The notes beneath the pieces were generated by a model. It was given only the letters and a program-made list of their open reading frames with translations. It made no database searches and had not been told where the DNA came from. A program made the position numbers and the translations under genes. From positions 1 through 64,000 of IMG/VR virus record IMGVR_UViG_3300044970_002959: DNA of 64,000 bases; one strand, 5' to 3'. How positions within the stretch are numbered: position 1 is the stretch's first letter; each line of letters begins with the position of its first letter. Below, piece after piece: positions 14,894-50,553 of this stretch. Source of the DNA: a virus.

Positions 14894-17800
14894 ATGGCCG
14901 CATTTAATCTTACAGCAGAACTAAATATTAGAGGGCCGTCGAACCTAAATAGGGTTGTTGCGGATATACGCAGACAGCTTTCCACAGTTTCTTTAGATGT
15001 TAATATAAACCCCAATACTTCTAGGGGTATACAAGCAGTAACTAGAGACGTAAGAGATTTAAGTGCCGCATTAAGAGATGCTCAGTCTAATGCTGTTGCG
15101 CTTGGGGCCGCATTGAGGGGTATTGGTGGCAGTTTTAATAATTTGTCATCATCTGTTAACAACATAGGTAATAGTCTTGGTAGAGTAAGCACATCATCTA
15201 CTGCTGTGTCCACCAGTATAAAAGCGGCATCGTCAGAAATGGCAGAGTTCGGTAAGCAGTCAGCTTTGGCTATTAGAAGATTTGCTGCGTTTAGCGTAGC
15301 GACGGGCGCTGTTTATACACTAGGAAAGGCTATCGCATCAGCATATTCTGAATTCGTAACATTCAATCAAGAGTTTGTTAGACTACAACAGGTAACAGAT
15401 ACTACCAAGGCTGGTCTAGGTGGATTAGCTTCTGAGATTACAAGATTATCGACCAACTTAGGCGTTAGCTCTTCGGAGCTGTTAAATGTGTCGGTAACAC
15501 TAGCTCAGGCAGGCTTAAGCGCCGGAGAAACAAAGCAGGCATTAGAAGCATTAGCTAAATCAGCACTCGCTCCGTCGTTCGATGGCCTTAACGAAACTGT
15601 CGAGGGAAGTATCGCTTTGATGAGACAGTTCGGCATTGGTGCTGGAGAACTTGAATCCGCTCTTGGATCGGTAAACGCCGTTGCTGCAAAATTCGCCGTA
15701 GAAGCCAGCGATATTATTACTGCTATTCAAAGAACCGGTGGTGTGTTTGCCGCTGCTAGTCAAGGAGTAAGTCAGGGGAAAGATGCTCTCAATGAGTTCT
15801 TGGCAGTATTTACAAGTGTAAGAGCCACTACTCGTGAAAGCGCAGAAACTATCGCTACCGGTTTAAGAACTATTTTTACCAGAATACAAAGAACATCCAC
15901 AATAGATTCTCTAAAAGAGTTTGGTATTACTCTAACTGATTTAGAAGGTAAGTTCGTCGGTCCTTTTGAAGCGATTAGGAGACTCTCTGATGGTCTTAGA
16001 ACACTAGATCCTAGAGATCTAAGATTCTCCGAGATAGTGGAAGAGCTTGGTGGTTTCAGACAGATCGGTAAGGTTATTCCTCTTATCCAACAGTTTGCTA
16101 CAGCGCAACAAGCTCTTTCTGTTGCCCAAAAGGGTTCGGGATCGCTCGCTAATGATGCGGCTACAGCCCAAGAAGCACTTGCTGTGAGAATAACAAAAGT
16201 TAGAGAGCAATTCATATCTCTAGTAAGAGACATAGGACAAAGCTCAAACTTTCAAGCGTTCGCAGACGTTTCCTTAAAGCTAGCCAGCGCATTAATATCC
16301 GTAGCAGATGCTGCTAAAGATGTGCTACCCGCTCTTGCTGCTATTACCGCTATTAGGGGTGTTGGCGCTTTGGGTCAGTTTTTTGGTGGTTTTAGCGGAG
16401 GAGTAAGTCGTCGTCCAAGAGGTTTTGCTACTGGTGGCGTTGTTCCTGGTAGCGGAAACGGAGATACTGTTCCCGCGATGCTCACTCCCGGAGAGTTTGT
16501 TATTCGCAAAAAAGCGGTAGCAGCTATTGGTACTAGTAATTTGCATAGAATGAATAAATATGCTGGTGGGGGCAGAGTCAAAAAATTTGCTAGAGGCGGA
16601 ATAGCAAATGCTCCAATGGTAGATGATATTATTCAAACTAGCGGATCAATACTACCAAAACCATCTTCGATACAAGATCTAATAAAAGCTGGCGGTGGCG
16701 GCGTTGATGTAGATAGAACACTCATAAGAACCACAGGAGATAAAGCGTACAGTAGCGCTCCGGGGAGCTCCAAGAATGCTGTTTTATCCAAGTACTTTAG
16801 GGACGACGAGAATAGACTAAAAGATATACAATCATCACCACTAACATCATTTGGTAGAGCACTACAACAAGCTATTCGTGCTGGAGAACTAAAGGCCGCT
16901 AACGTTAGCATTATTAGTAAGTCTCGTAGAACACGAGGCGTTCCAGAATATTTAAGTCAACTTTTTGGCATCCCAGTTCAAAATATGGTATTTACTCAAG
17001 GAGGAGACAAGCAGCCCGCTATGGATGCTATTAGGTCTAAGGGTCCAAGAGCAAACAGGGTCTCTAGATTTGCTCTGGGCGGACTGGTACAAAGATTTGC
17101 ACAAAAGGGGACCGGTTCGTACAGATCTGGTACTGTTAAGCCATTAAGTCCAGAAGAGCAATCCGAACTATCTGGTTTGCTTAGTCTAGAAAAAAGATGG
17201 CAAGACTCGGGACAAAAACTAAGAGCATTTACATCCGATAAACAATCTAGATTATCCCAACTTAAGTCTCGTAAAGAATTAGGCGGCGCGCAATCAGACG
17301 AAATTATTAATGGAATAAAGCTATCTAAAACATTCGGCGTTTCATTTTTAGAGGGTGGAGCACCAGATATCTCTGCTACCATAAGCGATGTATTGGCTAG
17401 AGGTAATGCTACTGGCGTAGACAAGCTTAGGGAATTTATCGGGAATAAACAAAAGGCTAGAGGAGCTAGAATAACAACAGACGGCAAAAGTAGTACTTTA
17501 TCTCCAGGAGGTAAAGATATTTTTGATAGACAAATTATGAATGGATTGCCAGATCTATTTGATAATGCAGTAGCCGCTTTGCCAGAGCCACTAAGACCCG
17601 GAAGAGGGCAAGTATCAACAGATCAACTAATAAGCTCCTCTGCCAGACAAGCAGTAAAGGGCTATTTTTTTGAAGCCTTTATTAGAAGAGCTAGTCAAAA
17701 TCTATTATCAGATAATGACACAACAGACGCAATTTTTGATTTTACTGGGGCTGGCAACAAGGAGGCATTAGGAAGGCTATTTGGCGGTAGATTTGTGACG

Positions 17801-20800
17801 CCAAATGAATTTAAGGTATCTCCCACTCCTGAAAATATTGCTAATGCTATTTCCAAAGCCATAGCTATTAGTTCGCCATCAGCACTCCAATACTTTAATA
17901 GTGGAGGTAGTGTAGAGGACACGGTTCCAGCGCTCTTAACCCCAGGAGAGTTTGTTATTAACAAAAGAGCGGCCTCTAGACTAGGAGCTGCAAAATTAAA
18001 TCAACTTAATAAAGCAGATAAGGTCCAAGGATTCAATAAGGGCGGTGTTGTTCAAAGATTTGCTGGCGGAGGCTCGGTACTCCCAGCCAGACCCGAAAAT
18101 CCCACAAGAGGAAATACTACCGCTGTTGGCGCGGCCATAGCAGCAATCAATGAAATGTCTTCTGCTTTAGAAGCACTAGGTTTATCAGCGTCCGCTTCTT
18201 CTAGACTGATAGAGGCTGGAGGAGCTATTAGTATAGCAGTATCTGAAAGAGCGCTTCAAGCGGATGTTAATAGACTTAGAATGGCTGGCGCCTCTGCTAC
18301 AGATATCTATAGAGCAGAACAACAGCTTGCTAATGTTAGAGAACAAAATGCCAATAAGCTCAATACTCAACAAATTATGAGTGGTGCTACTGGTGGTACT
18401 CTACAAGATATTCAAACCAGAGCAGAAACCGAAAGAGAAAGACTACTAGATGAGCGCCGAACAATTATGGCCTCTCGCGGCAGAACACAACAGGAGATAG
18501 AAGAAACTCTTGCTAATGACACCGGCTTCCAAGACCATGTTAGACGCAGAAGTTACGAAACTGCAACAACAGCAGTAACTGGGGCTCCGGCCAGAAGCAT
18601 GAGAGACGCTGGCGTAACCGGAGCAGATATCGAACAGTATGTTAATCAGAGCATGATGGACAGGAGAACCCTTGCCCAGATGGATGCTCAATTAATACGA
18701 ACAAGAGAACAAGAGCTAAGAAGTAGTGCTGCTTTCGCGTCAGCATCATCTACCGAACAACGAAGAATGCTAGGAGAATTAAGAGCAAGGAATAATGAAG
18801 AAATTAGAGAGAGACGCAATATAGTTAATCAGTTGGCCAAAGACAGGGGCATGACATCTGGCTTAACTGGTGCTGTTGGTAGAGGATTTAGAACAACTGG
18901 CGCTTTGTTCGGTATGGGTACATTTGCTGAAAATGAGAATGTTCCTGGTGGTGGTATGGGTGGTAGACTGAATAGATTTAGTGCTGGCGCGCAAAGAGCT
19001 GGTTTGGGCTTGAGTTTGGCTGGTGGTATGATAGGCAATACTATTGGCGATGCGATAGGAGGCAAAACCGGAGCTGGAATAGGTGCCGCAACATCTGCTT
19101 TTGCTAGTAGTGTTGGAGTTGGCGCTATGTTTGGTCCTGTAGGCGCTCTTGCCGGTGTTGTTACCGGAGCAACAGCAGCTATCAAAGCATGGACAGATGC
19201 TGTATCCGATGCTACCCTAGCAGAAGAAGCTAGTAAAACAGAGAAAGCATCCATTAAGATACAAAAAGGTTTTGAAAAACTAGAAAAAAGTACCACAAAC
19301 GCAGAATCTTCTTCTCTTATCAAAGATATTGTGGATAATCTTAGAAGCACATCTGGTAGCTTTTCTAGGTCTGTAAATAGCACCACAGACAAGATTGCTC
19401 CCGCATCGGGCTGGTCTGGCTTTTTTGCAGACCTTGGTAATTCCACAGCTAATATCACATCAGAAATAGCATCACAGGGTTTTGAGTCTTTAGGAAACAT
19501 ACTCAAGTCCGGATTGAATCTGACTGGCTTAACCAATATGCCTATTCAAGACACACCAGCTAATTTTAACGGCTTCAGAAGAGAAATAGACACAAATCAA
19601 CTAGGTAAAGAAATAGCAGCATTAGCTCGAAATAGTCAAGTTAATAGAGACCTACCACAATTGTTTGAACAAGGATTACGCAAAGGTAGAACATTCGAGC
19701 AAATATCTGCCGAAATTGGACCAGACTCTCTTGCTTCTATGAAGGAAATATTTGCTGTTTCTCAAGGCAATGAGACGATAACAAGTTTGATGGCAGATAG
19801 ATCCGCCGCTAGACAACAGCTTTCTCAGGCCGATACCGATGAGGATAGAGACAGGATAAAGAGAAGAATAGATAATCTTAATAAGTTAATTAGACGTATA
19901 GCAGAAGAATCGTTTAATAATGATATTAAGAAGAGTATTGTTGATAAAATAGCAGCAGAAAAGAAACTAGAACAAGCAGCAGCATCCGCAACCGTTCGCA
20001 TAAATTTATTTGCTAGTGTGTTAAACGACATATCTTCCGCAGTTAATAAGGCTGGTGTGGATTTCCAGGCAGCTCAAAGACAAATAGAAATTAATCTTGG
20101 GAGTGCATTTGGAGATCAGGTTCAGATGGCTGGCCCAGACAGAAGAAACGAAAATGTATTGGAGAATATGAGTGCTTATTCTGTTGAGGCTATTAGATCA
20201 GAGATTGGTAAGATCGGGTCTGATCTTAAGTTTAATCCGGCTGTGGTTCAAGAGGCTCAGTCGGCAGCCACGAATAAGAAAATTTTAGAAACAGAATTAC
20301 CGAAAATACTATCAGAAATTGCGGCTAAAGAAAAGAAGGGCTTCGACCCAGAAGGATCTGCTGCTCAAGTTATTAGAAATAGACTGTCCACAGTGCTAGA
20401 GGGGAAGGTAGATGATCCTAATGCTATAATTAGTAATGTAATAGCTAAAATCACAGAAAAAATCCAAACCAATTCTAGACAGGGACTAACAGTAGAGGAA
20501 TTATCTAAAGACAATAATGCTATTAATGAAATATTGAGCTCTGATACTAAAACACTAGAAATATTTAATAATCTAATTAAAATGGCCAATGATCAAGTGG
20601 CCGCACTAACAGCCTCATTTAATAGATTTTCTGGCCAACTAAATAGATTTTCAGAACTACAAATACAAAAAGAAAATATCGGAATAGAAGGAGAAAATCA
20701 GTTAACACAAGCTCTGGGTGGAAATCTTAGCTTGTTTGATATGAATGAACCTTTTGAGAATGCTATAGATATTCTTACTTCCAGAATCGGTGCTGATGGA

Positions 20801-23800
20801 AGACCAGCTAGAGGCACAGGAACACTAGACCCAGCACAAATAATGCAAAGAATGCTTGAGAAAGAAGCAGAAGCGGCAAATATTCAAAAACAACTAGATC
20901 AAGAGAGGCCATCTGTTGATAGTGCTAGATTCAAAGAACTAAATTCTTCTCTGGCCAGAACAACAGCAGAGGCCAGAAATCTACAAACAGCCCACCAGAA
21001 ACTAGCAACAGACTCTAGTAGAGCCTCCAACGCTCTTGCTAAAATTGGTGAGATTAGACAGCAGAACGAAAATAGACAATCGATGTTTTTAGAAATATTG
21101 AAAAATGCGAACAACCCAGAATGGCAAATGGAGTTCATCAATAGCGTTGATAACTATCAAAGAGTTATGGCTGGGCAAAATGTTGGGCCGGATGGATGGG
21201 CCAGTGCGGTTCAGGGCTTAGAGAATGCTCTAAGAGCAAATCCAAGAGATGCCAAAGACATACAGGAAAAATTTATACAGAATGCTGCGAATCTACAAGG
21301 ACTAGATAAAAATTTCGTTCAAAATATGATGAATTCAATAGGTATTGGGCTTGGAGAACCATCACCAGAGATGAAGGGATTGATAGATGAATTCTATAGA
21401 TTTAATGAGGTGCAACAAGAGGCCATTAATCAGTCGGCAGAAAGGATTATTACTGCCGGTAAAGAATTTTTAACAGCTGTTAATCAGGCTGGCGCGAATT
21501 GGAACGCTACTGTTGGTGCTGGTGGACAAAGAGATCCTTCGGTAGTTAAACCAGCGAATCCACCACGGCTCGCTCGTGGCGGAGTTGTATATGCTCAAGA
21601 CGGTGGACATATGGTTAATTTCCAACCAAGAGGAACCGATACTGTTCCAGCTATGTTAACTCCCGGTGAGTTTGTTGTTAATCGCAAAGCTGCTGCTAAG
21701 AATATGGGTCTTCTTAAGGCTATTAATAGTGGAGCTAAGGGTTATAGTAGGGGGGGTATTGTTTACCTACAACAAGGTGGCTATGTTCCTAAAGACACTA
21801 CAATTGATGCAGATGCTAAGGCATTAGAAGTAGAGATGAATACTGAATATGCTGCTGTTGATCAAAAAATAGCAGAAAATGATGCATTAATGGCTTTATT
21901 AAGGAGTGACTATGCTAATATACCAGAAGGTCCTCAAAAAGAAGCTATTCTAGAGAAGATAAGACAAACATATGTTGCAAATGGCGAATTACAAACCCAA
22001 AGAAAACAAATCGAGGAATCTTTTATACCAAGAATGGACCAAATTAGAGAAAGAAGAGATTTAGAAAGGGACAGAAGAATAGCTGGTACTGGTGAATTAA
22101 ATATGTTCGATATGGAGTCTCTAGATACTACTGATATTCCGGGAGATGAGCTTCGTTTCAAAGGAATGGATTTTGCCACTGGTAGGGTTGATCTTAATAG
22201 GTTGACACTCGAAGAACAGAAACAATACGAAACATATCAAGCAGAGGTAGAGAAGAGAAAACAAGCAAGAATACAAAAGGCAAAAGATCGCGTTGCGTCC
22301 GTAGACGGACCTCCAGCAGCCACATCATCAGCACCACAACAAGAACCCGAACTCACCAAAGACTTCTTAATTGGTGGTTACAAACCAAAACCCATTGGTA
22401 TGGGACCAGACTCAAATAAGCCCGATAGCGGAAAACCACCAATTCAAAGAGGTCCTTACGACCCAAATAAACCGGATGACGGCAGGCCAGCAATGGAGAT
22501 GTTGTCTGGTTCTGATGTAACGCCAGAAGAAAGAATAGCTGCTAGAAGAAATGCTGCTAGGCAAGCATACTTAGCAGATAAAAACCAAAAGAGAGCCAAC
22601 TTCTTAGCAAACAACCCTTTCTATGCAAAGAAAGAACAAGAAAAACAACAGAGAGCACAACAAGAGCAAAAAGATGCTCTAGCATGGAAACAAAAACAGT
22701 TAGGACCAAATGCCAAAATCAGCTCAGAAGAAACACAAGACATTATTAAAGAGCATAGGGCAATGAAGAGGGAGGAGAGAGCCAAGAAGGAAAGACTAGC
22801 TACCTATGGCACGGAAGACAAATTAAGTCCAGAAAAAGCTAGAGAAATATTAGATGAAAAGAGGGGCGCTGCATTAGCAAAAAGATTCGGATGGAAAGCA
22901 GACTCTATTGCTGGAACTTATGAGGGAGGAGACCGTCTTGAGCCACAAGAAGTAACTAGATTACCGGCTAAAGATAGGGAGCTTTTAACGCAATATCAAA
23001 ATGCCCAAATAGCAAAAGCAGCAGAAGCAGAAAGAAATAAGAAAAAATCCGAAATGGTTGCTGCTAGAGAGAAAGAAGACGCAACATTTAGAGCCTCTTT
23101 AGATAAAAAAGCCGAAGAAAGTATGGCTACCTATAGGAGCAACAAAGCAAAAGAAACCCAGCTACAGCAAGAGGCAGATAAAAAGAAACAAGAAGAAGCT
23201 GGCGCTGCTGCTATAGCAAAAAAGGCAGCTGATGAAAAGAGACTACAAGATAGTATCAAGGCACAAAATGCTGAGTACGAAGCTCAAAAACTAGCAAAAG
23301 AACAGAAAAAACTCAAAGAGGAAGCAGAAGCCAGAGACCTTAAAGAAGCACAAGTAACAGCAGTAGAGAATGCCGTACAAATAGATCCTGTATCAAGACA
23401 GATTATTAATATTAATCCAGATCAAGTAAACTCTAGAGTTGCTGAACTAAGAGAGAAAAAGAAGGCAAAGCTTGATCCATTTGTGGCCGGAGGCAAGCGT
23501 TCCGGAGCATCAAAACCACGCACAGAAGCAGATTTAGCAAAAATAGACCCAGAATTTGCTCAATTAAATAAGGAACTAGAAAGAGAAGAATTAGTAAAAG
23601 CTGGTATTGATAGAGCGAGAACTAAATTTGATGAAAAGAGAGCAGAAGAGAATCTTGCCACACAAGACAGATATGAAGAATTAAAATCGCTAGCAGATAA
23701 AAATAAACTTAGTCCGCAAGACTCACAAGAATATGCTACTCTAGCAATCAAGAGAGGAGTTAAGCCATCAGAAATTGCTGGTGGCGGAGCTGTTCGTGCG

Positions 23801-25795
23801 GAAAGAGTTCTAAGAGACGATGCTCTTGGATATGAAACTCGTCAACAACTAGAACAAACCGAATTAGATACCTATAGAAAGAAGTATGGAGAAAGAAAGT
23901 CTGTTATAGATCAAGTTCTAGATGAGGCAGCTGCTAGTGCTGGTAGTGGCGTTGAAGGTCTTACTGGCTCGAAGACACTTGGAACCATAGCTCAAACAGT
24001 AGCAAGAATTGGTGTTGGGGCGCTAGATCCCGCCGAAATGGCTGTGGGTATTGGTACTGGTGGTATTGGCAAAGCATTGTCTGCCGCACAAGATGTTGCC
24101 AACTCTGGTAAGGCAGTAGCTAATGCCAAAGGAATTGCTGCTAGAGCAGCGCAAAATCCATCAAGATACACGCCGGGAACGCTCAGACTACCCAAAAGCA
24201 CAAAAGCTGCCAATCCAAGAAGTGTACTAGATGAAGCTGGTAATTTTAGATCACAAAAAGATGTAGAGGCGGCTAGAGAAGCTCGTAAAATAGAGAGACA
24301 TGCTAGAAAAGATGCTGGAATAGCAAGAGCTGTTAAGGTTGAAGATCAAAAGGCATCGCAATTTTTAGAAGAGGCTGGGGACAGTGTTGATAATAGTGTG
24401 TCCTCATCGCCAAACGAAACAAAGGACTTGTCTCTTTTCGATGGAAGAGAGGTATCTCCAAACTCTGTTCCGTGGGTCGCCAGAGAAAAAACCAGAAGCA
24501 GTCTGGAGTTGGCCTGGGCCGTTGAAGATGGAAAAAAGATGGCAGAGAGTTTCAAAAGACAAGGTATAGAGATGCCAGACTTTACCTCCCCGTCTCCCGC
24601 TACAACAAGTAGAACCACAGCAGCAACAAGAGCAGCATCCACAAAAACAGGAGGCTCTACCAGAACATCGCTATCGCAAGCAATAGCGGAAGCAGACAAG
24701 GATGAGATACTCAAAAAATATGGTAGCGGCGGAGAAGGCAAATATGGTGGTAGCAATAGATACGATTTATCCAAAGAAGCTGCTGAAGGACCAATAACAG
24801 CGAAGGAACGCAAAGAAGCAATTAAGTCAGTTAAAGATGCTAAAAAAACAGCAGAGATTCGGGCAACCCAAAAGGCTTCTGCGGATAGAAGCGTAGAAGA
24901 GCAAACATACGCGGCTTTACAAAGATTAGAAAAAGATAAGTCTAATAGAAGATCTTTAGTTAGGTCTGGTGTCGGTGCTGCGGGAGCTGGAGCAGTAGCC
25001 TATAATAAGGATGCTTTAGCTAATGCTATAGTTTCAGAAGAAGAAATGCGCAGACAAATACGTAAGGCTAGAGGTATGAGTACCGGCGGTGTGGTTTATG
25101 CGGCAAAAGGCCAGTTAATTCCTTTTACCCCAAAGGGTACGGATACGGTTCCCGCTATGCTAACGCCGGGTGAATTTGTGATCAACCGTGCTGCCACACA
25201 AAAACACCTACCCTTATTAAAAGCTATTAATAATAATCAAGTACCAGGATATGCTAAAGGTGGCAAGGTTCGCTATTTTAGCGGTGGGTCAGATGGTCCT
25301 ATATCTCCTTCGTCCGGCGGTTCTGGGGGTGGTGGCGGTGTATCTAATATTAGTTTGGACACATCGGGCTTGGATACCGCTTTTAATTCTTTTGCTACTA
25401 ATGTAGAGTCACTAAAATCTGTAATGGACAGCTTTGCAGCAGCAGCATCTAGCATTAGCGGTGGTTTTAGCCAGTTAAGTCAATTGGAGGCTGGGGCAAA
25501 TAGGATTGGTACAGCAGCTACCTCGATTAGTGCAGCATCACAAACCTTCGGGTCTGTAATCGCTAACTTTAATACGTCGATAGCCGCTATGCAAGAGGCC
25601 TTTTCTAAGATTCCTAGCGCTGTAGATTTTAGAGTAAGTGGTTCGGTACCAATCAATATAACAGTAGATGTTAATGGTGGAGACGGATTACAAGATAGTT
25701 TAGCTCAATTCCAAGACCAAATTTTTACCGAAATTTCTAATGGAATTAGCAACGCAATGCCAGGTGTGAATATAAGTTTTACTCGAACAACTTAG
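14894..25795 (+). CDS. Tail tape measure protein with embedded enzyme-like domains
   Basis: At 3633 residues this protein sets tail length during assembly and is probably ejected with the DNA. Residues 100-500 match the TP901-type tape measure core ('SAYSEFVTFNQEFVRLQQVT', 'SELLNVSVTLAQAGLS', 'ESAETIATGLRTIFTRIQ'). Four segments of the form DTVPA(M/L)LTPGEFV start at residues 524, 1009, 2249 and 3417. Between the first two lie a HAD-like domain (D605, D607, T609, S675, K706) and a PD-(D/E)XK-like domain (E927, D949, E972, K974). Gly/Ala-rich hydrophobic stretches at about 1365-1435 ('GMIGNTIGDAIGGKTGAG') and 3040-3080 may insert into membrane. Residues 2290-3000 are charged helical repeats. 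By the rule of about 0.15 nm per residue the tail could exceed 500 nm, less if inserts do not count. Confidence 0.93.
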   Translation: MAAFNLTAELNIRGPSNLNRVVADIRRQLSTVSLDVNINPNTSRGIQAVTRDVRDLSAALRDAQSNAVALGAALRGIGGSFNNLSSSVNNIGNSLGRVSTSSTAVSTSIKAASSEMAEFGKQSALAIRRFAAFSVATGAVYTLGKAIASAYSEFVTFNQEFVRLQQVTDTTKAGLGGLASEITRLSTNLGVSSSELLNVSVTLAQAGLSAGETKQALEALAKSALAPSFDGLNETVEGSIALMRQFGIGAGELESALGSVNAVAAKFAVEASDIITAIQRTGGVFAAASQGVSQGKDALNEFLAVFTSVRATTRESAETIATGLRTIFTRIQRTSTIDSLKEFGITLTDLEGKFVGPFEAIRRLSDGLRTLDPRDLRFSEIVEELGGFRQIGKVIPLIQQFATAQQALSVAQKGSGSLANDAATAQEALAVRITKVREQFISLVRDIGQSSNFQAFADVSLKLASALISVADAAKDVLPALAAITAIRGVGALGQFFGGFSGGVSRRPRGFATGGVVPGSGNGDTVPAMLTPGEFVIRKKAVAAIGTSNLHRMNKYAGGGRVKKFARGGIANAPMVDDIIQTSGSILPKPSSIQDLIKAGGGGVDVDRTLIRTTGDKAYSSAPGSSKNAVLSKYFRDDENRLKDIQSSPLTSFGRALQQAIRAGELKAANVSIISKSRRTRGVPEYLSQLFGIPVQNMVFTQGGDKQPAMDAIRSKGPRANRVSRFALGGLVQRFAQKGTGSYRSGTVKPLSPEEQSELSGLLSLEKRWQDSGQKLRAFTSDKQSRLSQLKSRKELGGAQSDEIINGIKLSKTFGVSFLEGGAPDISATISDVLARGNATGVDKLREFIGNKQKARGARITTDGKSSTLSPGGKDIFDRQIMNGLPDLFDNAVAALPEPLRPGRGQVSTDQLISSSARQAVKGYFFEAFIRRASQNLLSDNDTTDAIFDFTGAGNKEALGRLFGGRFVTPNEFKVSPTPENIANAISKAIAISSPSALQYFNSGGSVEDTVPALLTPGEFVINKRAASRLGAAKLNQLNKADKVQGFNKGGVVQRFAGGGSVLPARPENPTRGNTTAVGAAIAAINEMSSALEALGLSASASSRLIEAGGAISIAVSERALQADVNRLRMAGASATDIYRAEQQLANVREQNANKLNTQQIMSGATGGTLQDIQTRAETERERLLDERRTIMASRGRTQQEIEETLANDTGFQDHVRRRSYETATTAVTGAPARSMRDAGVTGADIEQYVNQSMMDRRTLAQMDAQLIRTREQELRSSAAFASASSTEQRRMLGELRARNNEEIRERRNIVNQLAKDRGMTSGLTGAVGRGFRTTGALFGMGTFAENENVPGGGMGGRLNRFSAGAQRAGLGLSLAGGMIGNTIGDAIGGKTGAGIGAATSAFASSVGVGAMFGPVGALAGVVTGATAAIKAWTDAVSDATLAEEASKTEKASIKIQKGFEKLEKSTTNAESSSLIKDIVDNLRSTSGSFSRSVNSTTDKIAPASGWSGFFADLGNSTANITSEIASQGFESLGNILKSGLNLTGLTNMPIQDTPANFNGFRREIDTNQLGKEIAALARNSQVNRDLPQLFEQGLRKGRTFEQISAEIGPDSLASMKEIFAVSQGNETITSLMADRSAARQQLSQADTDEDRDRIKRRIDNLNKLIRRIAEESFNNDIKKSIVDKIAAEKKLEQAAASATVRINLFASVLNDISSAVNKAGVDFQAAQRQIEINLGSAFGDQVQMAGPDRRNENVLENMSAYSVEAIRSEIGKIGSDLKFNPAVVQEAQSAATNKKILETELPKILSEIAAKEKKGFDPEGSAAQVIRNRLSTVLEGKVDDPNAIISNVIAKITEKIQTNSRQGLTVEELSKDNNAINEILSSDTKTLEIFNNLIKMANDQVAALTASFNRFSGQLNRFSELQIQKENIGIEGENQLTQALGGNLSLFDMNEPFENAIDILTSRIGADGRPARGTGTLDPAQIMQRMLEKEAEAANIQKQLDQERPSVDSARFKELNSSLARTTAEARNLQTAHQKLATDSSRASNALAKIGEIRQQNENRQSMFLEILKNANNPEWQMEFINSVDNYQRVMAGQNVGPDGWASAVQGLENALRANPRDAKDIQEKFIQNAANLQGLDKNFVQNMMNSIGIGLGEPSPEMKGLIDEFYRFNEVQQEAINQSAERIITAGKEFLTAVNQAGANWNATVGAGGQRDPSVVKPANPPRLARGGVVYAQDGGHMVNFQPRGTDTVPAMLTPGEFVVNRKAAAKNMGLLKAINSGAKGYSRGGIVYLQQGGYVPKDTTIDADAKALEVEMNTEYAAVDQKIAENDALMALLRSDYANIPEGPQKEAILEKIRQTYVANGELQTQRKQIEESFIPRMDQIRERRDLERDRRIAGTGELNMFDMESLDTTDIPGDELRFKGMDFATGRVDLNRLTLEEQKQYETYQAEVEKRKQARIQKAKDRVASVDGPPAATSSAPQQEPELTKDFLIGGYKPKPIGMGPDSNKPDSGKPPIQRGPYDPNKPDDGRPAMEMLSGSDVTPEERIAARRNAARQAYLADKNQKRANFLANNPFYAKKEQEKQQRAQQEQKDALAWKQKQLGPNAKISSEETQDIIKEHRAMKREERAKKERLATYGTEDKLSPEKAREILDEKRGAALAKRFGWKADSIAGTYEGGDRLEPQEVTRLPAKDRELLTQYQNAQIAKAAEAERNKKKSEMVAAREKEDATFRASLDKKAEESMATYRSNKAKETQLQQEADKKKQEEAGAAAIAKKAADEKRLQDSIKAQNAEYEAQKLAKEQKKLKEEAEARDLKEAQVTAVENAVQIDPVSRQIININPDQVNSRVAELREKKKAKLDPFVAGGKRSGASKPRTEADLAKIDPEFAQLNKELEREELVKAGIDRARTKFDEKRAEENLATQDRYEELKSLADKNKLSPQDSQEYATLAIKRGVKPSEIAGGGAVRAERVLRDDALGYETRQQLEQTELDTYRKKYGERKSVIDQVLDEAAASAGSGVEGLTGSKTLGTIAQTVARIGVGALDPAEMAVGIGTGGIGKALSAAQDVANSGKAVANAKGIAARAAQNPSRYTPGTLRLPKSTKAANPRSVLDEAGNFRSQKDVEAAREARKIERHARKDAGIARAVKVEDQKASQFLEEAGDSVDNSVSSSPNETKDLSLFDGREVSPNSVPWVAREKTRSSLELAWAVEDGKKMAESFKRQGIEMPDFTSPSPATTSRTTAATRAASTKTGGSTRTSLSQAIAEADKDEILKKYGSGGEGKYGGSNRYDLSKEAAEGPITAKERKEAIKSVKDAKKTAEIRATQKASADRSVEEQTYAALQRLEKDKSNRRSLVRSGVGAAGAGAVAYNKDALANAIVSEEEMRRQIRKARGMSTGGVVYAAKGQLIPFTPKGTDTVPAMLTPGEFVINRAATQKHLPLLKAINNNQVPGYAKGGKVRYFSGGSDGPISPSSGGSGGGGGVSNISLDTSGLDTAFNSFATNVESLKSVMDSFAAAASSISGGFSQLSQLEAGANRIGTAATSISAASQTFGSVIANFNTSIAAMQEAFSKIPSAVDFRVSGSVPINITVDVNGGDGLQDSLAQFQDQIFTEISNGISNAMPGVNISFTRTT
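16685..17068 (+). other. HAD-like phosphatase domain inside tape measure protein
   Basis: Residues about 598-725. Motif I is 'DVDRTLI' (D605, D607, T609), matching DxDxT; motif II is 'VSIISKS' with S675; and 'GGDKQPAMDAI' supplies a motif III-type lysine (K706). The order and spacing match small HAD domains. The DD motif IV is not evident and the strand before motif I is glycine-rich, so activity is uncertain. Confidence 0.55.
17565..17880 (+). other. PD-(D/E)XK-like nuclease domain inside tape measure protein
   Basis: Residues about 890-995. A helix with E927 ('VKGYFFEAFI') is followed by 'TTDAIFDFTGAG' (D945/D949) and 'NEFKVS' (E972-x-K974), then a helix 'PENIANAISKAI'. This E...D...ExK order is that of PD-(D/E)XK nucleases. 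It lies just before the second TPGEFV segment. Assigned by motif only. Confidence 0.45.
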
Positions 25796-30139: not shown

Positions 30140-31591
30140 ATGAGTTCATTTAATTTTGTAAATGTTGGCGGAACCAATCTTAGGCCAGCTCCGTATGTTA
30201 GCACTAGTTACGAGTACAATAAGTTTGGAGAGGTTATTATAGGTGGTGTTTTGCTAGTTACGCTAAACGGAACTTTGGTTGGTGAAGATATTATTAGTCA
30301 AATGAATAATTTAAGTTATAAGCAAATGAACACAAATTGTATTAATGTTATAATTGGGTGTTCTGGTAATAGTGATTTTTTAGATGGTTCTGGCAGAATT
30401 AGATCAATAGACATAAATCCATCGGACCAGCCTTTCGTGGCTACTTATAGTATGCAGATAGCGATAGAAACAATAGGAGGCAAACCAGCTGTTGAGCCAG
30501 ACTCTCAATTTTTAAAAAATAATTGTTTGAAAAACGTAGAATACTTACAAAGCTATAGTGAGACAATTAGTATTCAGGCAGAAGGATCAACTATAGGTTC
30601 TACAGATTCTATTATGAATGTTAGTAAATCATATGTAAAAGCTTCTGGACAAATATCTGTAGCTTCTTATGGTAGAGAAATTTGCGGAGTACCTGAATTT
30701 AAAGGAATAGATCAGTCCCTTGATATCATTAAACAAAGAGCAAATGCTCTATTATCCTTACAGTCATGCGACACCAGCCCCATCTCTACGTTTAGCGGAT
30801 GGTCCAAATGGCTAGACACAAAAAGGTTAGACATAGATACTGGCACAGGTACCGTAACCTGGTCTTTTGATCTATATATGAGCAAAGGAGGATGCGCTCC
30901 ATCAGCATGGGTGGACATAACAACAGAAGATAAATTTGATGAAAAAAAGAAAATGAAAACCAAAATTATCAACGGAACCATCAAGGGTCTGTCCTCAGCA
31001 ACAACAGACTATCTTGGTAATAAAGCCTCTGGTTCTGATAAAATGAGTAATGCTATGTCTGCTTATGGAAAGATATCCTCTTCTATTACTTCTGGTTCGT
31101 GGGCTGGAGATGGTATAGTATTGTCTGGTACCGAGGGTTCTTGCATAGCCCCAGACCCATGCGTAAATAATAAGGTTTGTTATCAACGAATATCTAGCAA
31201 TATTACTAAATCTATTATAAGTGGTGAAATAACTTTTAGTGCAGAATTTGGAGATGTGAGCGCTTGTAAGGCAAACGGAGGAGGTATAGGCACTATTGAT
31301 GTTAGTGTAGAAATTAGCAATCCGTCAGTGAAAATTGTGGAAATTATAGTGCCTAATGGTGTAAATGCTATTGTGCAACCAATAGGGGATACTCCAGCAA
31401 GAGCTACAGTAACAGCCAGAGGAACGCTATCAGGATGCGATCAAAGTAAGATCGCTCAATTAAAAAACTGCGTTCTAACAGAACTCAATAAAAAAGCTAG
31501 TAATTTTAATGGATGGATTATACTTAAGAACAAGGAATCTATTGGAAATTTTTCTTATAGTTTAACTAGAGAGTATATAAGATGCGGCTAG
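30140..31591 (+). CDS. Tail-tip protein B (paralogue pair), unknown family
   Basis: The 483-residue protein has the same length and internal repeat plan as the upstream gene: 'LLVTLNGTLVGEDIISQ', 'VKASGQISVASYG', 'TKIINGTIKGLSSATTDY', 'TVTARGTLSGCDQSK'. Four such units suggest an evolved tandem of one small beta domain. It ends 'SIGNFSYSLTREYIRCG', comparable to 'TLNSYSLKIDLIKGC' upstream. It overlaps the next gene by 10 bases. Two different but related subunits could form a hetero-ring or stacked rings at the tail tip. Confidence 0.4.
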   Translation: MSSFNFVNVGGTNLRPAPYVSTSYEYNKFGEVIIGGVLLVTLNGTLVGEDIISQMNNLSYKQMNTNCINVIIGCSGNSDFLDGSGRIRSIDINPSDQPFVATYSMQIAIETIGGKPAVEPDSQFLKNNCLKNVEYLQSYSETISIQAEGSTIGSTDSIMNVSKSYVKASGQISVASYGREICGVPEFKGIDQSLDIIKQRANALLSLQSCDTSPISTFSGWSKWLDTKRLDIDTGTGTVTWSFDLYMSKGGCAPSAWVDITTEDKFDEKKKMKTKIINGTIKGLSSATTDYLGNKASGSDKMSNAMSAYGKISSSITSGSWAGDGIVLSGTEGSCIAPDPCVNNKVCYQRISSNITKSIISGEITFSAEFGDVSACKANGGGIGTIDVSVEISNPSVKIVEIIVPNGVNAIVQPIGDTPARATVTARGTLSGCDQSKIAQLKNCVLTELNKKASNFNGWIILKNKESIGNFSYSLTREYIRCG

Positions 31592-32967
31592 GACCATCAA
31601 CATATAAAAAGTTTTTTTCTGGGATTTCTAGCAACGAATTTGTTAGAGTATCAGACATAAATAATAATCACAATTATACAGGCTCTGCTTACGACATACC
31701 ACGGTATGATTTTACTAATAACAACGGAGGCTGGACAACCTCTCCCACCTCGGGAACTCCTTTTGTTTGGGAACCAGGAAGATGGTATATAGTTGGAAAT
31801 AACAATAAGCAGGCCATCTTGACCAGCCCCAGCATACCACACAATACTTATAAAGTAGTAGTTGAACATAAATGGAACTTTGAAAACATACTAGACCATG
31901 GAAAACTACAGTGCTCTATAGATAATGGTGTTAATTGGGTTGAGATTCCGTCTGTCTTATTTAGCGAAGGATGGTACAATACAACGAATGGATGGAGTGG
32001 CCTACAAAATAAATATATCCGTAGTGAATGTCTTATAAATCTAACAGGATTGCCGATTGGCCCAGGTTTTAAAATTAGATTTGTTGGTATTTGGAATAAT
32101 AGTACCTTAACACCAAATCCCAACTGGGATATATCCTCTGTTTCTATCGAAGGATTGGGTTCTGTATCGTACACATATCAAATTACTAAATATGAGATTA
32201 CAAATAACGAGTATTGCCTATTTTTAAATAGTGTTGATCCCGCAGGAACTAATCCAAATAGCATCTACACAGCAGAAATGACATCATCCGCAACAGGAGG
32301 AATACAGCTGCTACCATCTGCCCCAAACGGCCATAAGTATATGACAAAGACAAATATGGGAAATAAACCAGTTAATTTTATTAATTGGTGGAGAGCAGCG
32401 AGATATTGCAATTGGCTATATAATGGAGGTAATAAGTATAGAAAAAGCGATAATACTAGTATAGCACCACAAAATTTTGGCGCCTACAATATCGGCACCA
32501 CAACTTCGGGATCTACTCTGTTTAGGCCCTTGAGTAGTAGGTTTAGGATACCAACACTAAATGAGTGGATAAAGGCTGGATACTACATGGGAGATGGTGA
32601 AAACTCTGGATATTGGTCGTATCCGACACAAAAAAATATCACACCAGAATGTATAAGTATTGTTACTTCTGGCGGAGATCCGATAGTGTCACCGACCCAC
32701 TCTACTTTTCTATCTTTAGATGCTAGTATTATTCAGGACTTTAATTTAGAGATTCTTAGTAGTATTTATTCTGATACTATGGTTAGACCCATTCATAATC
32801 AAATCATTCTTAATTCACAAATGTATGAAGATGTGCTTGTAGAAACAAAGGATACCGGAACGATGATTAATTCACAAATGTATGGAGATGTGCTCGTAGA
32901 ACCGAAGGATACCGGAACGATGGTTAATTCGCAAATGTATGGAGATGTGCTTGTGGTTAGTTCATAG
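31582..32967 (+). CDS. Tail adhesin with N-terminal half of an FGE/C-lectin domain
   Basis: A 461-residue protein. Residues 40-190 form a beta-sandwich lectin-like domain ('GKLQCSIDNGVNWVEIP', 'FKIRFVGIWNNST'). Residues 197-371 are the first half of a formylglycine-generating-enzyme (sulfatase-modifying, C-type-lectin) fold: 'YQITKYEITNNEYCLFLNS', 'NKPVNFINWWRAARYCNWLY', 'RIPTLNEWIKAGYYMGDG'. The domain breaks off at 'PIVSP' and its second half begins the gene at 34268. After the break come a phage-type ending 'DTMVRPIHNQ' and 2.7 copies of a 19-residue repeat ('NSQMYGDVLVEPKDTGTM'). Such domains display ligand-binding surfaces; enzyme activity is unlikely. Confidence 0.6.
   Translation: MRLGPSTYKKFFSGISSNEFVRVSDINNNHNYTGSAYDIPRYDFTNNNGGWTTSPTSGTPFVWEPGRWYIVGNNNKQAILTSPSIPHNTYKVVVEHKWNFENILDHGKLQCSIDNGVNWVEIPSVLFSEGWYNTTNGWSGLQNKYIRSECLINLTGLPIGPGFKIRFVGIWNNSTLTPNPNWDISSVSIEGLGSVSYTYQITKYEITNNEYCLFLNSVDPAGTNPNSIYTAEMTSSATGGIQLLPSAPNGHKYMTKTNMGNKPVNFINWWRAARYCNWLYNGGNKYRKSDNTSIAPQNFGAYNIGTTTSGSTLFRPLSSRFRIPTLNEWIKAGYYMGDGENSGYWSYPTQKNITPECISIVTSGGDPIVSPTHSTFLSLDASIIQDFNLEILSSIYSDTMVRPIHNQIILNSQMYEDVLVETKDTGTMINSQMYGDVLVEPKDTGTMVNSQMYGDVLVVSS
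32812..32964 (+). repeat. 57-bp tandem repeat at 3' end of adhesin gene
   Basis: Three units start at 32812, 32869 and 32926 (the last is truncated by the gene end). The units are nearly identical in DNA, so the duplication is recent. Each encodes NSQMYxDVLV followed, in the first two, by ExKDTGTMx. The SQxYxDVL core resembles the C-terminal 'VSQxxxEVL' ending of many phage tail proteins. Confidence 0.85.
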
Positions 32968-33044
32968 GATGCAATTGAACAAAATGAATAATGGTGTAAT
33001 TATAACTATATCAGTCTAAATTTTTAAGTTTTAGGAGATTTAAA
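32968..33044 (+). promoter_or_regulatory. Putative promoter in adhesin intergenic gap (RGTGTA motif)
   Basis: ATGGTGTAATTATAAC (core 32993-32998) resembles the motif in the gaps at 2253, 7473 and 10681. It lies 47 bases before the next ATG, which has an AGGAG ribosome site. Weak evidence: A/T-rich similarity and position only. Confidence 0.25.
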
Positions 33045-34267: not shown

Positions 34268-37200
34268 ATGGTCTCCCCAGCAGGAACTAACACAGCAAAC
34301 TTCAATAATTGCGCAAACTGGAATAACCAGAGTGGTAATCTTACAACAGTAGGATTAAATGGGGGTCCTAGTGCTTACGGAACATACGATCAGGCCGGTA
34401 GTGTAGCGGAGTGGACTTCCGATGGATGGTTATTGGGAGGGTCTTACTCTTCTTCTGTTAATGAATTGGGGCTGCCTTCTGGACTACTCAGAGGTTCCCT
34501 TGGCGATAGTAGTAGTACTTCTGGATTTAGGATTACTGGTGAAGACCATACGCACATCAATGTTTCTTTTGATGGTCCTGATTTTTATATACCCTCACAG
34601 CAACTAAACCACTCCTTTACCATTATTAATGACGAGCAATTTACGATCAGTATGGATATAGACTGTCCTCTCGATAGTAAGATTACAACAAATTCTTGGA
34701 GTGTTTCTTATGGTCCTGGCTCATCAGGAATAGTTTCAGGAACAGGAAATCCATCCGGACTTATATCGCTAGGACCACTATCAACTGCTACGTTTAATAT
34801 GATATCAAATACAGATAGTTTAGCAAAAACATCTATAGTTATAGCGGCGAGCCTGTCACTAACGACACAAACAGCCCCACTGATAAATTCTATTTTTTAT
34901 AACACAATACCCGTATCTTTTCAGAAAAGCCCCGTCCCGTCTCTTTATAGTATTTTAGTGGATGGTTCTGGATGGAATCCTGTTGCGCCCAATGAATTTC
35001 TTTTGATAGATGATGCAAATAACGCCCCAACAGCTTCTGGAAAGGGTTCTGTCGGGTATAATTATTTGATGACAAAATATGAAATCACGAATTTAGAATA
35101 TTGTAAGTTTTTGAATTCAATAGATCCTCAGGGAATACAACCCAATGGATTATGGGATTCTTATAATAGAGAGTATTATGATTACCTTATGCTGGGCGGT
35201 ATACTATATAATTCTTTTGCAAGTAATGGGTCGAAATATACCACTAGAGCAGAGATGTCGAACAAGCCGGTTAATCTCGTGAGTTGGTGGGCAGCAGCCA
35301 GATATTGTAATTGGCTTCATAATGGAGGCATTGCTTATTCAACTACACAGACCGGTAATACAGCGCCTCAAAATTCGGGAGCGTATACTCTTGGAGAAAA
35401 CACAACCGGAGCTATGCCTCTACCAAATGCAGGAGCTAAATATCGTATACCAACAAGTAATGAATGGATAAAAGCAGCATACTACTTAAGAGGTAGCACC
35501 AGCGCCGGATACTCAACTTTTGCTACGAGAAGTTCTACTGCTCCTTCTGGCGTATCCGCTAATGAGGCCGGAGACGGGGTTTCAACCATATATAATAATT
35601 CTGTCAATTGTTTCAACCAGGCCATCTGGAACCCAGAAGGCTATAACGAATGGTGGCACGGTCAACAACCAAGACCAACTACTGTTGGTACCAATGGAAC
35701 ACCATCGTCATATGGGTTGTTCGACATGAACGGCAACGTAGAGGAAATAACAGAAGGATCAGATAGAAACTATTTTTATCCCAGAGGACGAGCATACGAT
35801 TCCACTTCCCTAACTGGTATTAACACAGACAACCTGCCTGAGTCTGGCATCGCTTTGGAAACTCATGCGGTTTCATGGAATACGGGATTTCGTATTATTT
35901 CTTTGTTCGAAGGAGATATTACGGTTTCGTCGTCAGTTAGTGATGCTTATTATACACAAAATAAAGAAATAACAGTATCTCTAATTCTTAATAATCAGTC
36001 AATTTATAATATAGATTACGCTACCCTAGACATGAATATATCTGGGCCAGAATTTGAATCAATAGATTGGTTAGCTACATACCCTTCAACATCGTCTGGT
36101 CCTATAAGGGGCCACTCTTCTTTTACTAGCAATATGAGTATAGGAGCAGGAGACTCTATAACTTTTATAGTTAAGCTAGTAACAAAAAACAATACCGTAG
36201 CTCCAATACTGCTTAGCGCCTTAGTAACTCCTCCGGAGCTATTTTCCGACATAAATCTCACTAATAATATCACTACGATAACAATACCTCCGAAACCAAC
36301 CGATGTAAGTATTTCTATTAGTGGTCCGCCATTCTACGAGCAGTCCGAACCTGCAAATTATAATTTAGTAATAAATAATATCGGAGATTCCTATATCGAG
36401 GATGCTACAGTTCTATTTTCTTATTCTGGTGGTATTATTGCCGCATTAGACTGGAGTGCTTCCCATAATCTATCTATCGGTGAAATGTCTGGAGCAAATA
36501 TTCTTTATACAAACATAGCTCTTTTACCCAGCGGACAAACAACATACAATATACAACTAACTCCGTCCGCTACAACCATAAATAATATTCTTTTGTCTGC
36601 TAGTATTGTAGCTCCGTCGTCACTACCAGATCCCAACCTATCAAATAATATCGTTTCATTATCAACTCCAGTTAAGCCAACAGATCTAGGGATTAATATA
36701 ACAAGCCTAGGAGAGTATTATACACAAAATATTATTTTTCCTATTATAGTGCAAATTACTAATACTGGCCAATACAGCCCAGATACGATTTTCAATATTG
36801 CATTTAGTGGTAGTTCTAATGACACTGCCATAAGCTGGACCGCAATATATAGCTCTGGAAGCTCTGGACCTATGTCTGGTGTTGGTAATCCATCTAATAG
36901 CGGCATAAATTTAGCTAATGGTGGATCTTGTGAGCTGAACATATCATATATTCCTGGTGTCAATTCATTAGTTCCGATACAAGTTATAGCGAGTGTTGGC
37001 AGTAAAAGCCCACTAATAGACAATAATATAAATAATAATACTAGTTTATCTTCTTTAGTCTTTTTATCTCCTACTGATATCAGTATATCTGGTTCTTTAG
37101 GATCAAGACCATATTATATAAATAATGAATATATAGACTATTCATTTACTGTTACTAATAATGGACCTAATGCCATTTCCGACATAAGCGTATCTATTCC

Positions 37201-39532
37201 TTCCTCATCAGGATTAATTTCTACAAAATGGACAGCAGCATACACTAATGGTAGCGGACCAGGATTTGGTTCTGGCGATATAAATAGCTATATTTATCTT
37301 GCTTCTGGAGGATCTGCAAAATATACGATTGATGGTACAGCAGCTCCTGGCATGACTTCCCCAATTCTTTCCACAGGAACAGTGTCTTTGCCAAACATTA
37401 GCGGCTTAATGGATCCCGACGAATCCAATAATATCTCTACTGTATCCGTCCCGCGAGCATTATCTATAGGCAATGTTTTGTATTCTCAAAGTACCTGCGA
37501 CGACGATGGTTATATTACGATTAATCTTAATGATGGCGTTCCTCCTTTTAGATATACTATAGGGTCTGTGTTCGCCAACTCTTCAGAAAGAACATATAAA
37601 TTTACAGGATTAAAATCAGGTACATATAATATTGTTGTCATAGACTCAACCAGCTATACTTCTTCTTATTCAGAGGAGATAGTTATAGAGGACTCGACCA
37701 TATCTTTATCCATAAATAACGCCCTACCTCCTGTGCTACTTGATTCTTTCGGCAAGTTAGACTTTACTATAAGTGGAGATGGTCCATTCAGTCTAGTATT
37801 CAGTAATACAACAAATGAAGAAACTATAGAGATACCAGCATTTGAAACCAAATACTTGGTGGATATCACAGGGAATAAATATAACTATATTATAGATGAT
37901 AAAATAACACCTGGCACCTATTCTCTTATGATTATTGGCAGTAATAATTGCAGGCTCTTAGAAACCTTTATTATGCCAAACATAACGCCAATGTCTGTTT
38001 CTGTATCGTCATCTCCAGACGAGCCAATCATAATAAATTCTCCACTAATATCATTAGATATTTTTGATACATTGCTGGTGCCATACAAGCATATCTTGCA
38101 TAATTCTGATCTTTGGTCTCTAATCAAAGAATTTAATATTAAAGACAATATTTATTTATGGATAAATAATGATAGATATGAATTTAGGGTCGTCAGAACA
38201 ATGCTCGATAAATATTGCTTAAATGAAAATAAAATAGAGATACTTAAACTAGGTAACTCATATGAAGACTGGTATTTTTATCTTTATATAGCTCCATCTA
38301 TTAATTTAAGTTCTAATCCTGAGCTTATCAACGCAAAGATAAGACTTGGTACGGCAGACGAAACACAAATGTATGACATTGTGTTAGGACTATCAGAAGA
38401 CGGCAGACTTGAGCAGGAGGCTCCTAGCTTAATTAAGGGCAGTATTATTGTAGACGGAGTATCTTTTCCTGATATTGTGAATGGATCGTCCGCAAATATT
38501 TCTATTGGAGTTAATGAATTAGGCTTAGGATCAAACGACTATGAATTGCTCAATATTAAAAAAACACAATTTTCTAGAATGTATTCAGCCGGAGCTGTTA
38601 CAGCAATTAATTTCTTAGAAAATTTTAATGTTCTTAATGAATATGTGGGGCTTTCTCAGACATCTTGTAATACTAATGAAACAGATTATCAATATTTAAT
38701 AAGAATCAAAAATCTATTAATTACTATTAATAACTTTAATAACCTAAATACTATTTATTTATTTAATAATAATAACATTATTCATACTGGTCAGATCAAT
38801 TGCTTTCCCAGCATACACAGTCCAATGATAACAGATAAAGGATCGATAGATAATAACTTTAATATTCAGTACTTTACATTTAATATTAACGATAAACATA
38901 TACATAAATTTATTAGCAATAATAAAAAAGTAGAAAACGTCACCGTAATGAATGGCCTAGACTCAAGATATGTTATTGCTAGAACTACCGATAATTATGG
39001 AAATATTCCTAAATCAATAGTTTATGATAATATCATAGTGTCATACGATTCCCATTTTATAAAGAGTAAACAAATAATTCAAAATATTAATGCAGATATA
39101 CTGCATGATTTTACTTATGGAGACATCCTGATATTTGTACCAACACCAGAAGAGAATGATTTGCCGAACCCGAACCCAACACCACCAGTAATACCAGTGA
39201 CGCCGACAACCCCTGTTATTACAATACCAACAGTAGAAGTTACTAAAGATGTTACTAACACAAGTTCTTTAACTGTAAATATTTTCCCACTAAATACAAA
39301 GTGCATCATATATGGGCCACACCAATATATGCATACTTTTAGCGGAAATACAAAATTTACTAATATTATTCCTGGTATTTATAGGATTATTGGGGAGCCC
39401 ACAGATATAAAAAATAAAAACTTATACCAGAATGAATATAGAATTATAATAAATAAGAATACAGCGGTATCTCAAAATGTCGAATTTTTCTCATATGCTA
39501 ACATGATTTTTATAAGTAAAGAGGACCACTAA
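34268..39532 (+). CDS. Giant adhesin: FGE C-half, full FGE domain, DUF11-like repeats, SprB-like repeat
   Basis: A 1754-residue tail adhesin. Residues 1-90 are the second half of an FGE/C-lectin domain ('GTYDQAGSVAEWTSDGWLLG', 'TSGFRI') without the first half. Then come an Ig-like DUF11/CARDB-type domain, a complete FGE domain at about 263-545 ('MTKYEITNLEYCKFLNS', 'RIPTSNEWIKAAYYLRG', 'YGLFDMNGNVEEI'), and four more DUF11-like repeats, each opening like 'PTDVSISISGPPFYEQSEP'. At about 1072-1130 there is an SprB-like unit ('DDGYITINLNDGVPPFRYTI'). A Pro/Thr linker near 1632 precedes a final small beta domain. The start codon has AAAAGGA upstream, so this is translated separately from the N-half gene. 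Confidence 0.65.
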   Translation: MVSPAGTNTANFNNCANWNNQSGNLTTVGLNGGPSAYGTYDQAGSVAEWTSDGWLLGGSYSSSVNELGLPSGLLRGSLGDSSSTSGFRITGEDHTHINVSFDGPDFYIPSQQLNHSFTIINDEQFTISMDIDCPLDSKITTNSWSVSYGPGSSGIVSGTGNPSGLISLGPLSTATFNMISNTDSLAKTSIVIAASLSLTTQTAPLINSIFYNTIPVSFQKSPVPSLYSILVDGSGWNPVAPNEFLLIDDANNAPTASGKGSVGYNYLMTKYEITNLEYCKFLNSIDPQGIQPNGLWDSYNREYYDYLMLGGILYNSFASNGSKYTTRAEMSNKPVNLVSWWAAARYCNWLHNGGIAYSTTQTGNTAPQNSGAYTLGENTTGAMPLPNAGAKYRIPTSNEWIKAAYYLRGSTSAGYSTFATRSSTAPSGVSANEAGDGVSTIYNNSVNCFNQAIWNPEGYNEWWHGQQPRPTTVGTNGTPSSYGLFDMNGNVEEITEGSDRNYFYPRGRAYDSTSLTGINTDNLPESGIALETHAVSWNTGFRIISLFEGDITVSSSVSDAYYTQNKEITVSLILNNQSIYNIDYATLDMNISGPEFESIDWLATYPSTSSGPIRGHSSFTSNMSIGAGDSITFIVKLVTKNNTVAPILLSALVTPPELFSDINLTNNITTITIPPKPTDVSISISGPPFYEQSEPANYNLVINNIGDSYIEDATVLFSYSGGIIAALDWSASHNLSIGEMSGANILYTNIALLPSGQTTYNIQLTPSATTINNILLSASIVAPSSLPDPNLSNNIVSLSTPVKPTDLGINITSLGEYYTQNIIFPIIVQITNTGQYSPDTIFNIAFSGSSNDTAISWTAIYSSGSSGPMSGVGNPSNSGINLANGGSCELNISYIPGVNSLVPIQVIASVGSKSPLIDNNINNNTSLSSLVFLSPTDISISGSLGSRPYYINNEYIDYSFTVTNNGPNAISDISVSIPSSSGLISTKWTAAYTNGSGPGFGSGDINSYIYLASGGSAKYTIDGTAAPGMTSPILSTGTVSLPNISGLMDPDESNNISTVSVPRALSIGNVLYSQSTCDDDGYITINLNDGVPPFRYTIGSVFANSSERTYKFTGLKSGTYNIVVIDSTSYTSSYSEEIVIEDSTISLSINNALPPVLLDSFGKLDFTISGDGPFSLVFSNTTNEETIEIPAFETKYLVDITGNKYNYIIDDKITPGTYSLMIIGSNNCRLLETFIMPNITPMSVSVSSSPDEPIIINSPLISLDIFDTLLVPYKHILHNSDLWSLIKEFNIKDNIYLWINNDRYEFRVVRTMLDKYCLNENKIEILKLGNSYEDWYFYLYIAPSINLSSNPELINAKIRLGTADETQMYDIVLGLSEDGRLEQEAPSLIKGSIIVDGVSFPDIVNGSSANISIGVNELGLGSNDYELLNIKKTQFSRMYSAGAVTAINFLENFNVLNEYVGLSQTSCNTNETDYQYLIRIKNLLITINNFNNLNTIYLFNNNNIIHTGQINCFPSIHSPMITDKGSIDNNFNIQYFTFNINDKHIHKFISNNKKVENVTVMNGLDSRYVIARTTDNYGNIPKSIVYDNIIVSYDSHFIKSKQIIQNINADILHDFTYGDILIFVPTPEENDLPNPNPTPPVIPVTPTTPVITIPTVEVTKDVTNTSSLTVNIFPLNTKCIIYGPHQYMHTFSGNTKFTNIIPGIYRIIGEPTDIKNKNLYQNEYRIIINKNTAVSQNVEFFSYANMIFISKEDH

Positions 39533-48971: not shown

Positions 48972-49443
48972 TATCTTTTATCTTTACAACCGATTTTATT
49001 AGGTCGTATATCAGATCCCTCCACTGGTTGATTGATTCTGTTTTTGTAGTATCATACAACATAATTTTGTCATGAATTCTCCCCCAAGAATCATAAATAA
49101 GATCACTAATGGCTATCTGTAGTGTTGGTTCTATTTCAATATTATTTTTAGTGTCTATAGTAATATTTCTAGGCTTATGATCATGATCTACTATCAGTAG
49201 GGGACTATGAAAGTATTTTGCTGATTCTATACATTTTTCTAAATGACTAATCCTAGAATTACATATGATGATATCTATAGAGGCAAACCCAAAATATGTG
49301 TGGTCAAATTCTAAAAAGGATGGCTTATCCAAGCACTTATCAATAAAGTTTTTGAACATTATATTGTCTGTTGGCGTCCATAAAACGTTAATAACGTCTT
49401 GTTTTTGGAGAAATTCTCTATGTAATATAGACGATAGTATCAT
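48958..49443 (-). CDS. Small glycosyltransferase-like protein
   Basis: A 161-residue protein resembling the N-terminal Rossmann half of a GT-B glycosyltransferase: 'FASIDIIICNSRISHLEKCI' followed by 'HSPLLIVDHDHKPRN'. The donor-binding half is missing, so it may be a partner subunit or a remnant. It overlaps the larger glycosyltransferase by 4 bases and the next gene by 14. Confidence 0.4.
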   Translation of the reverse strand: MILSSILHREFLQKQDVINVLWTPTDNIMFKNFIDKCLDKPSFLEFDHTYFGFASIDIIICNSRISHLEKCIESAKYFHSPLLIVDHDHKPRNITIDTKNNIEIEPTLQIAISDLIYDSWGRIHDKIMLYDTTKTESINQWRDLIYDLIKSVVKIKDNDEQ

Positions 49444-50552: not shown

Positions 50553-50553
50553 C

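Follow-up and report, generated by a model that had tools for sequence, protein, structure and literature searches.

It is an established prediction that large multidomain polyvalent proteins enter the host together with the DNA of the phage (Iyer et al. 2017, PMC5512222). These long polypeptides each combine several unrelated enzyme domains, are encoded in the late or virion region and vary between relatives, and their repertoire includes ADP-ribosyltransferases (ART) and, as a common partner, a zincin-like peptidase. The main text of that paper mentions neither tape measure proteins (TMPs) nor the term 'haloacid'. In phage heads, the virion structural domain MuF is fused to exchangeable enzymatic effectors (PMC9503650). 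In addition, phage T5 has an enzyme domain within its TMP, pb2, and phage T4 injects the ADP-ribosyltransferase Alt, which acts before gene expression.

Here, we analysed a stretch of 64,000 nucleotides (the window) from a 78,716-base uncultivated virus record. Like the polyvalent proteins, the TMP encoded there combines unrelated enzyme-like domains, belongs to the virion genes and varies between relatives, and the slots of its relatives overlap much of their repertoire. However, the carrier is a TMP, and the cargo sits between TPGEFV repeats just after the core. Like the MuF fusions, it joins a virion structural domain to exchangeable enzyme-like domains; but in MuF, which is a part of the head, the effectors are C-terminal, whereas the slot lies inside the tail ruler and takes up to several modules in a row. 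T5 pb2 also holds its enzyme domain within the TMP, but enzymes of that type act on the cell wall during entry, whereas the slot domains resemble nucleic-acid, nucleotide and protein-modifying enzymes. Furthermore, ART domains occur in relatives of the window TMP, which recalls T4 Alt; Alt is a separate head-packaged protein, whereas the slot domains belong to the tail ruler itself and would be delivered with it. We hold, with fair but not high confidence, that the TMP of this phage family doubles as the carrier of swappable enzyme-like cargo in a slot behind its core.

The TMP gene is a single uninterrupted ORF (Table 1). Its product scored 82 bits against Pfam PF10145, for which the cut-off is 33 bits, and the PHROG families that matched it are tape measure families. 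Matches to a terminase and a major head protein lie upstream of the gene. TPGEFV occurs at aa 531, 1016, 2256 and 3424, and the four blocks are a 55-nt direct repeat at the DNA level too. A first-pass annotation, made from the sequence alone, had proposed that HAD-like and PD-(D/E)XK-like domains are built into this protein, bracketed by TPGEFV segments. The brackets were found at aa 531 and 1016, and the residues that it had named (DVDRTL at 605, SIISKS at 672, K706, E927, D949 and E972-F-K974) are all where it had placed them. Between repeats 3 and 4 there is a second hypervariable zone, which is helical and of low complexity in the window phage and nearly missing from all relatives in blastp.

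Table 1. Features of the tape measure protein gene, with positions in the window
Feature	Position	Strand	Basis
Tape measure protein gene, 3,633 aa	14894-25795	+	single uninterrupted ORF; matches to PhageMin_Tail and to PHROG tape measure families
Conserved TMP core, PhageMin_Tail, aa 182-374	15437-16015	+	Pfam PF10145, E 6e-23
DTVPAMLTPGEFV, repeat 1, left slot edge	16463-16517	+	DNA direct repeat
Linker GGGRVKKFARGG	16565-16600	+	before HAD-like domain
HAD-like domain, type B, aa 574-727	16613-17074	+	motifs, model, fold search, profile comparison
Invariant D577-D578, candidate displaced motif IV	16622-16627	+	alignment; hypothetical
HAD residues D605; D607; SIISKS; K706	16706-16708; 16712-16714; 16907-16924; 17009-17011	+	motif positions
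Segment exchanged with the distant phage of L018	16905-17935	+	97.7% identical, about 1 kb
Linker RFALGGLVQRFAQKG	17066-17110	+	between HAD-like and PD-like domains
PD-(D/E)XK-like domain, aa 740-1005	17111-17908	+	signature, family profile, profile comparison
PD residues E927; D949; E972-x-K974	17672-17674; 17738-17740; 17807-17815	+	motif positions
DTVPALLTPGEFV, repeat 2, right slot edge	17918-17972	+	DNA direct repeat
TPGEFV repeat 3	21638-21692	+	DNA direct repeat
Second hypervariable TMP zone, aa 2301-3350, between repeats 3 and 4	21794-24943	+	blastp coverage
TPGEFV repeat 4	25142-25196	+	DNA direct repeat

Several other genes of the window were noted. Downstream of the TMP gene, two large proteins with FGE-sulfatase-like domains are encoded on the plus strand (31582-32967 and 34268-39532), the first of which ends in a 57-nt tandem repeat (32810-32980). 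A diversity-generating retroelement was considered for these tail-side proteins, and just this repeat was found. The minus strand holds two neighbouring group 1 glycosyltransferase genes (49440-52164), a DNA polymerase III alpha split over two ORFs (52690-54294 and 55142-57022) with another ORF between them, and a separate PDDEXK_1 nuclease gene (57019-58020) adjoining primase-like Toprim, DnaB and RecA genes.

The relatives compared here were the best matches of three scans, so frequencies among them are biased, and the sequences of all relatives come from metagenomic contigs. The domain profiles were iterated, which makes drift possible, and their catalytic columns stayed conserved. Linkers were masked in the profile seeds; unmasked, they had made the domain profiles drift.

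The first of the two domains, here called type B, has the motifs of a HAD enzyme. In motif I, D605, D607 and T609 were invariant in 20 of 20 distinct type B relatives, and K706 of motif III was invariant in 21 of 21 type B domains. The S/T of motif II lies in the SIISKS block, which is ITKS in L135. An AlphaFold model made with 30 homologues gave pLDDT values of 79-96, averaged by block, over about aa 600-719 (85-96 in the core). With this model, Foldseek returned the class B acid phosphatase AphA first (probability 0.98, E 0.007), and nearly all of the best 50 VIA-align rows were HAD-type folds; the best Z, 6.2 over 117-122 residues, is moderate, and the list is consistent. In addition, a second HAD family (type A) occupies the same slot in 21 relatives and keeps the full set of four motifs, with the motif IV acids among them. 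Profile comparison joined type B to type A (probability 94%, E 1.2e-7), whereas the other families tested gave E values of at least 0.0035. These results support a HAD-like fold for the domain. The first-pass annotation had made its HAD-like reading depend on the conservation of D605 and D607; the invariance of both, the phosphatase matches of the model and the kinship to a four-motif family all uphold it.

That annotation had also remarked that a clear motif IV was lacking. Indeed, motif IV acids (DD, GDxxxD or similar) were not found after motif III in any type B copy. Upstream of motif I, the pattern Pro-h-h-Asp-Asp (aa 574-578; P-h-h-D577-D578-h) was invariant in the 20 of 20 sequences that cover it, and among 76 non-redundant TMPs, P-h-h-D-D-h was present in exactly the nine with a type B HAD. 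The pLDDT of the model around D577-D578 is below 50, so the model is unreliable there. The strands of the HAD sheet have the order 5-4-1-2-3, which puts the strand of motif IV next to that of motif I. Because these two strands adjoin, a shift of motif IV to the N-terminal side is possible, and judging from the alignment, D577-D578 may be the motif displaced in this way. A broader picture, which we put forward only tentatively, is that the TMP serves a whole family of environmental phages as a standard carrier with interchangeable cargo slots, traded at TPGEFV, and that one of the cargoes is a circularly permuted HAD with a restriction-like nuclease as its constant companion.

The second domain belongs to a family (PD2) for which the iterated profile found members in 55 of the 69 TMPs with a length of 900 aa or more. 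Across 60 divergent domains, its signature was conserved at E927 (57/60), D949 (60/60), E/D972 (58/60) and K974 (43/60), and these columns were among those of lowest entropy. All four residues are present in the window copy. The catalytic lysine position is T in the other 17 domains, and some of these copies may be inactive. Furthermore, the PD2 profile resembled that of PD3, another slot family with an E-D-ExK pattern (E about 1e-5). A similarity between the PD2 and HAD_A profiles (E 1e-4, 27 columns) was discarded as an artefact of overlapping neighbouring segments. With a pLDDT of 68.5, the AlphaFold model of this domain is weak and matched nothing confidently, and fold searches of PDB and BFVD gave nothing above noise besides a faint hint of the restriction enzyme PspGI (Z 3.1, 109 residues). 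The strong signature supports a PD-(D/E)XK-like assignment of aa 740-1005. What stood of the earlier PD-(D/E)XK-like reading is therefore the signature, with the conservation of E972 and K974 on which it had been staked, together with the similarity to PD3; the fold itself, with its alpha-beta-beta-beta-alpha-beta core, was left unconfirmed by the weak model.

The back-to-back placement of the two domains, already pointed out in the first-pass annotation, recurs in the relatives. A PD domain stands directly after the type A HAD in 20 of 21 cases and before it in L036. In the complete type B loci, the HAD is without exception preceded or followed by a PD-like partner; most of these partners were called by profile and five by eye. 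Since the HADs in complete loci consistently have a PD-like partner, the pair is a recurring partnership. In addition, K974 was kept in 20 of 20 PD domains beside a type A HAD versus 19 of 33 without a HAD (Fisher p 0.0004, with kinship among the sequences uncorrected), and T was never seen in this column beside a type A HAD.

This constant company also fits another explanation, in which the PD domain is an active nuclease and the window HAD a pseudoenzyme whose motifs I-III bind a phosphate ligand or metal and steer or restrain the nuclease. The motif IV acids, missing after motif III in all type B copies and kept in type A, point the same way. However, D605, D607, T609 and K706 would be dispensable in a dead enzyme and are nevertheless invariant, and D577-D578 could supply the acids. 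We regard a pseudoenzyme as less likely than not.

A large family of TMPs shares a hypervariable slot, and the HAD/PD pair, the only one described in the first-pass annotation, is just one of its contents. Blastp from the window TMP reached 67 of 68 relatives in the core and 68 in the second TPGEFV block, and about 4-16 across most of the cargo zone. There were 40 annotated arrangements of the first slot among 69 TMPs. The window TMP has two modules on its polypeptide, and up to seven were annotated in others, such as L086 and L101. For instance, ART domains in the slots of L014, L035 and L046 exceeded the cut-off of Pfam PF03496, and in 15 of 15 slots a P-loop module was followed by a HIGH-type nucleotidyltransferase-like module (e.g. 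L070:12308-13645, L035, L056). A zincin-like HExxH module, which lacks Pfam support, is present in 10 related TMPs and absent from that of the window. An SNase-like module reached just under the Pfam cut-off in one member, and further slots hold other PD-like families and unassigned modules. The modules are joined by the linker GG-hh-Q/K-+-F-A-x-GG. The distance between the bounding repeats ranges from 188 to >1,700 aa, and therefore the slot is unlikely to count in the ruler.

The TMP core had 440 relatives in one collection. Nine contigs with the same core (L108-L116) lie in bacterial MAGs of unrelated phyla and are probably mis-binned phage contigs; host assignment from these nine matches was dropped. 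L114 and L115 have a PD module in the slot.

Slot content has also moved recently. The window and L018 share 67% protein identity in the TMP core, where silent sites are saturated (dS 2.2), and dS is 1.6 in the N-terminal half of the window HAD. In contrast, dS is 0.06-0.09 in the segment 16905-17935, whose two breaks fall at the conserved SIISKS block and inside the second TPGEFV. Because this segment is 97.7% identical while the core is saturated at silent sites, the comparison identifies a recent exchange between distant phages. Meanwhile, L007 has the backbone of the window (74-87% DNA identity) but a different PD module.

Direct Pfam, PHROG and PDB sequence searches gave no match to either window domain, and searches of this type with the PD3 family gave none either. 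Among isolate phages, tblastn against 50,697 phage records detected no relative of the HAD-like or the PD-like domain, nor of the HAD_A-PD or P-loop-HIGH modules of the relatives, and the TMP core was matched only at 21-29% identity. In the open-access literature, with most subscription papers outside the scope, no description of a swappable enzyme slot in a TMP was found.

We suggest that the first slot is probably a polyvalent, swappable cargo zone of the TMP, with delivery at DNA entry. Bounded by TPGEFV behind the conserved core, it holds one to several modules on GG-xx-FA-GG linkers, and in the window phage a PD-(D/E)XK-like nuclease domain follows a HAD-like phosphatase domain. Distant phages exchange such cargo, and homologous recombination at the conserved repeats and inside modules that they share is a plausible route. 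The slot would leave the tail with the DNA, and its domains would be at work in the host within the first minutes. Host or rival DNA might be the target of the nuclease; DNA ends, nucleotides or nucleotide signals might be the substrates of the HAD phosphatase; the job of the pair would be DNA cleavage and phosphate removal. The polyvalent make-up of the slot and the swapping of its content are compatible with delivery into the host, and ejected TMPs have been proposed to form a DNA channel into the cell in JBD30 (PMC11445458). However, the bore of the tail tube is about 4 nm (PMC9022992), which leaves little room for the folded domains of three TMP copies and is a difficulty for delivery; the domains would perhaps pass partly unfolded.

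The enzyme-like folds could instead be structural or assembly modules, that is, globular spacers, chaperone-binding domains or head-proximal plug domains with no catalytic role in the host. They do belong to a virion structural protein, and both the T in place of the catalytic lysine and the window HAD without motif IV after motif III would suit such a role. But the most conserved columns are catalytic-type residues, the slot also accommodates ART, zincin-like, P-loop and nucleotidyltransferase-like modules, whose order and number differ between TMPs, and its variable span is unlike that of a fixed structural part. We consider a purely structural role unlikely. The substrates of HAD, PD-(D/E)XK-like, ART and nucleotidyltransferase-like domains are usually of a cytoplasmic type. 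This, and the absence of any match to a peptidoglycan-hydrolase family in the slots scanned, make it very improbable that the domains do their work in the cell envelope as the phage penetrates it and not in the cytoplasm, although known TMP-embedded enzymes work on the envelope, such as the T5 pb2 peptidase as cited in PMC11445458.

Little is known of what tailed phages send into the cell alongside their DNA. If the TMP carries exchangeable enzyme cargo, as we favour, the tail ruler would be a delivery vehicle as well. In that case, the content of the slot could be read from the genome as a prediction of early-infection functions.
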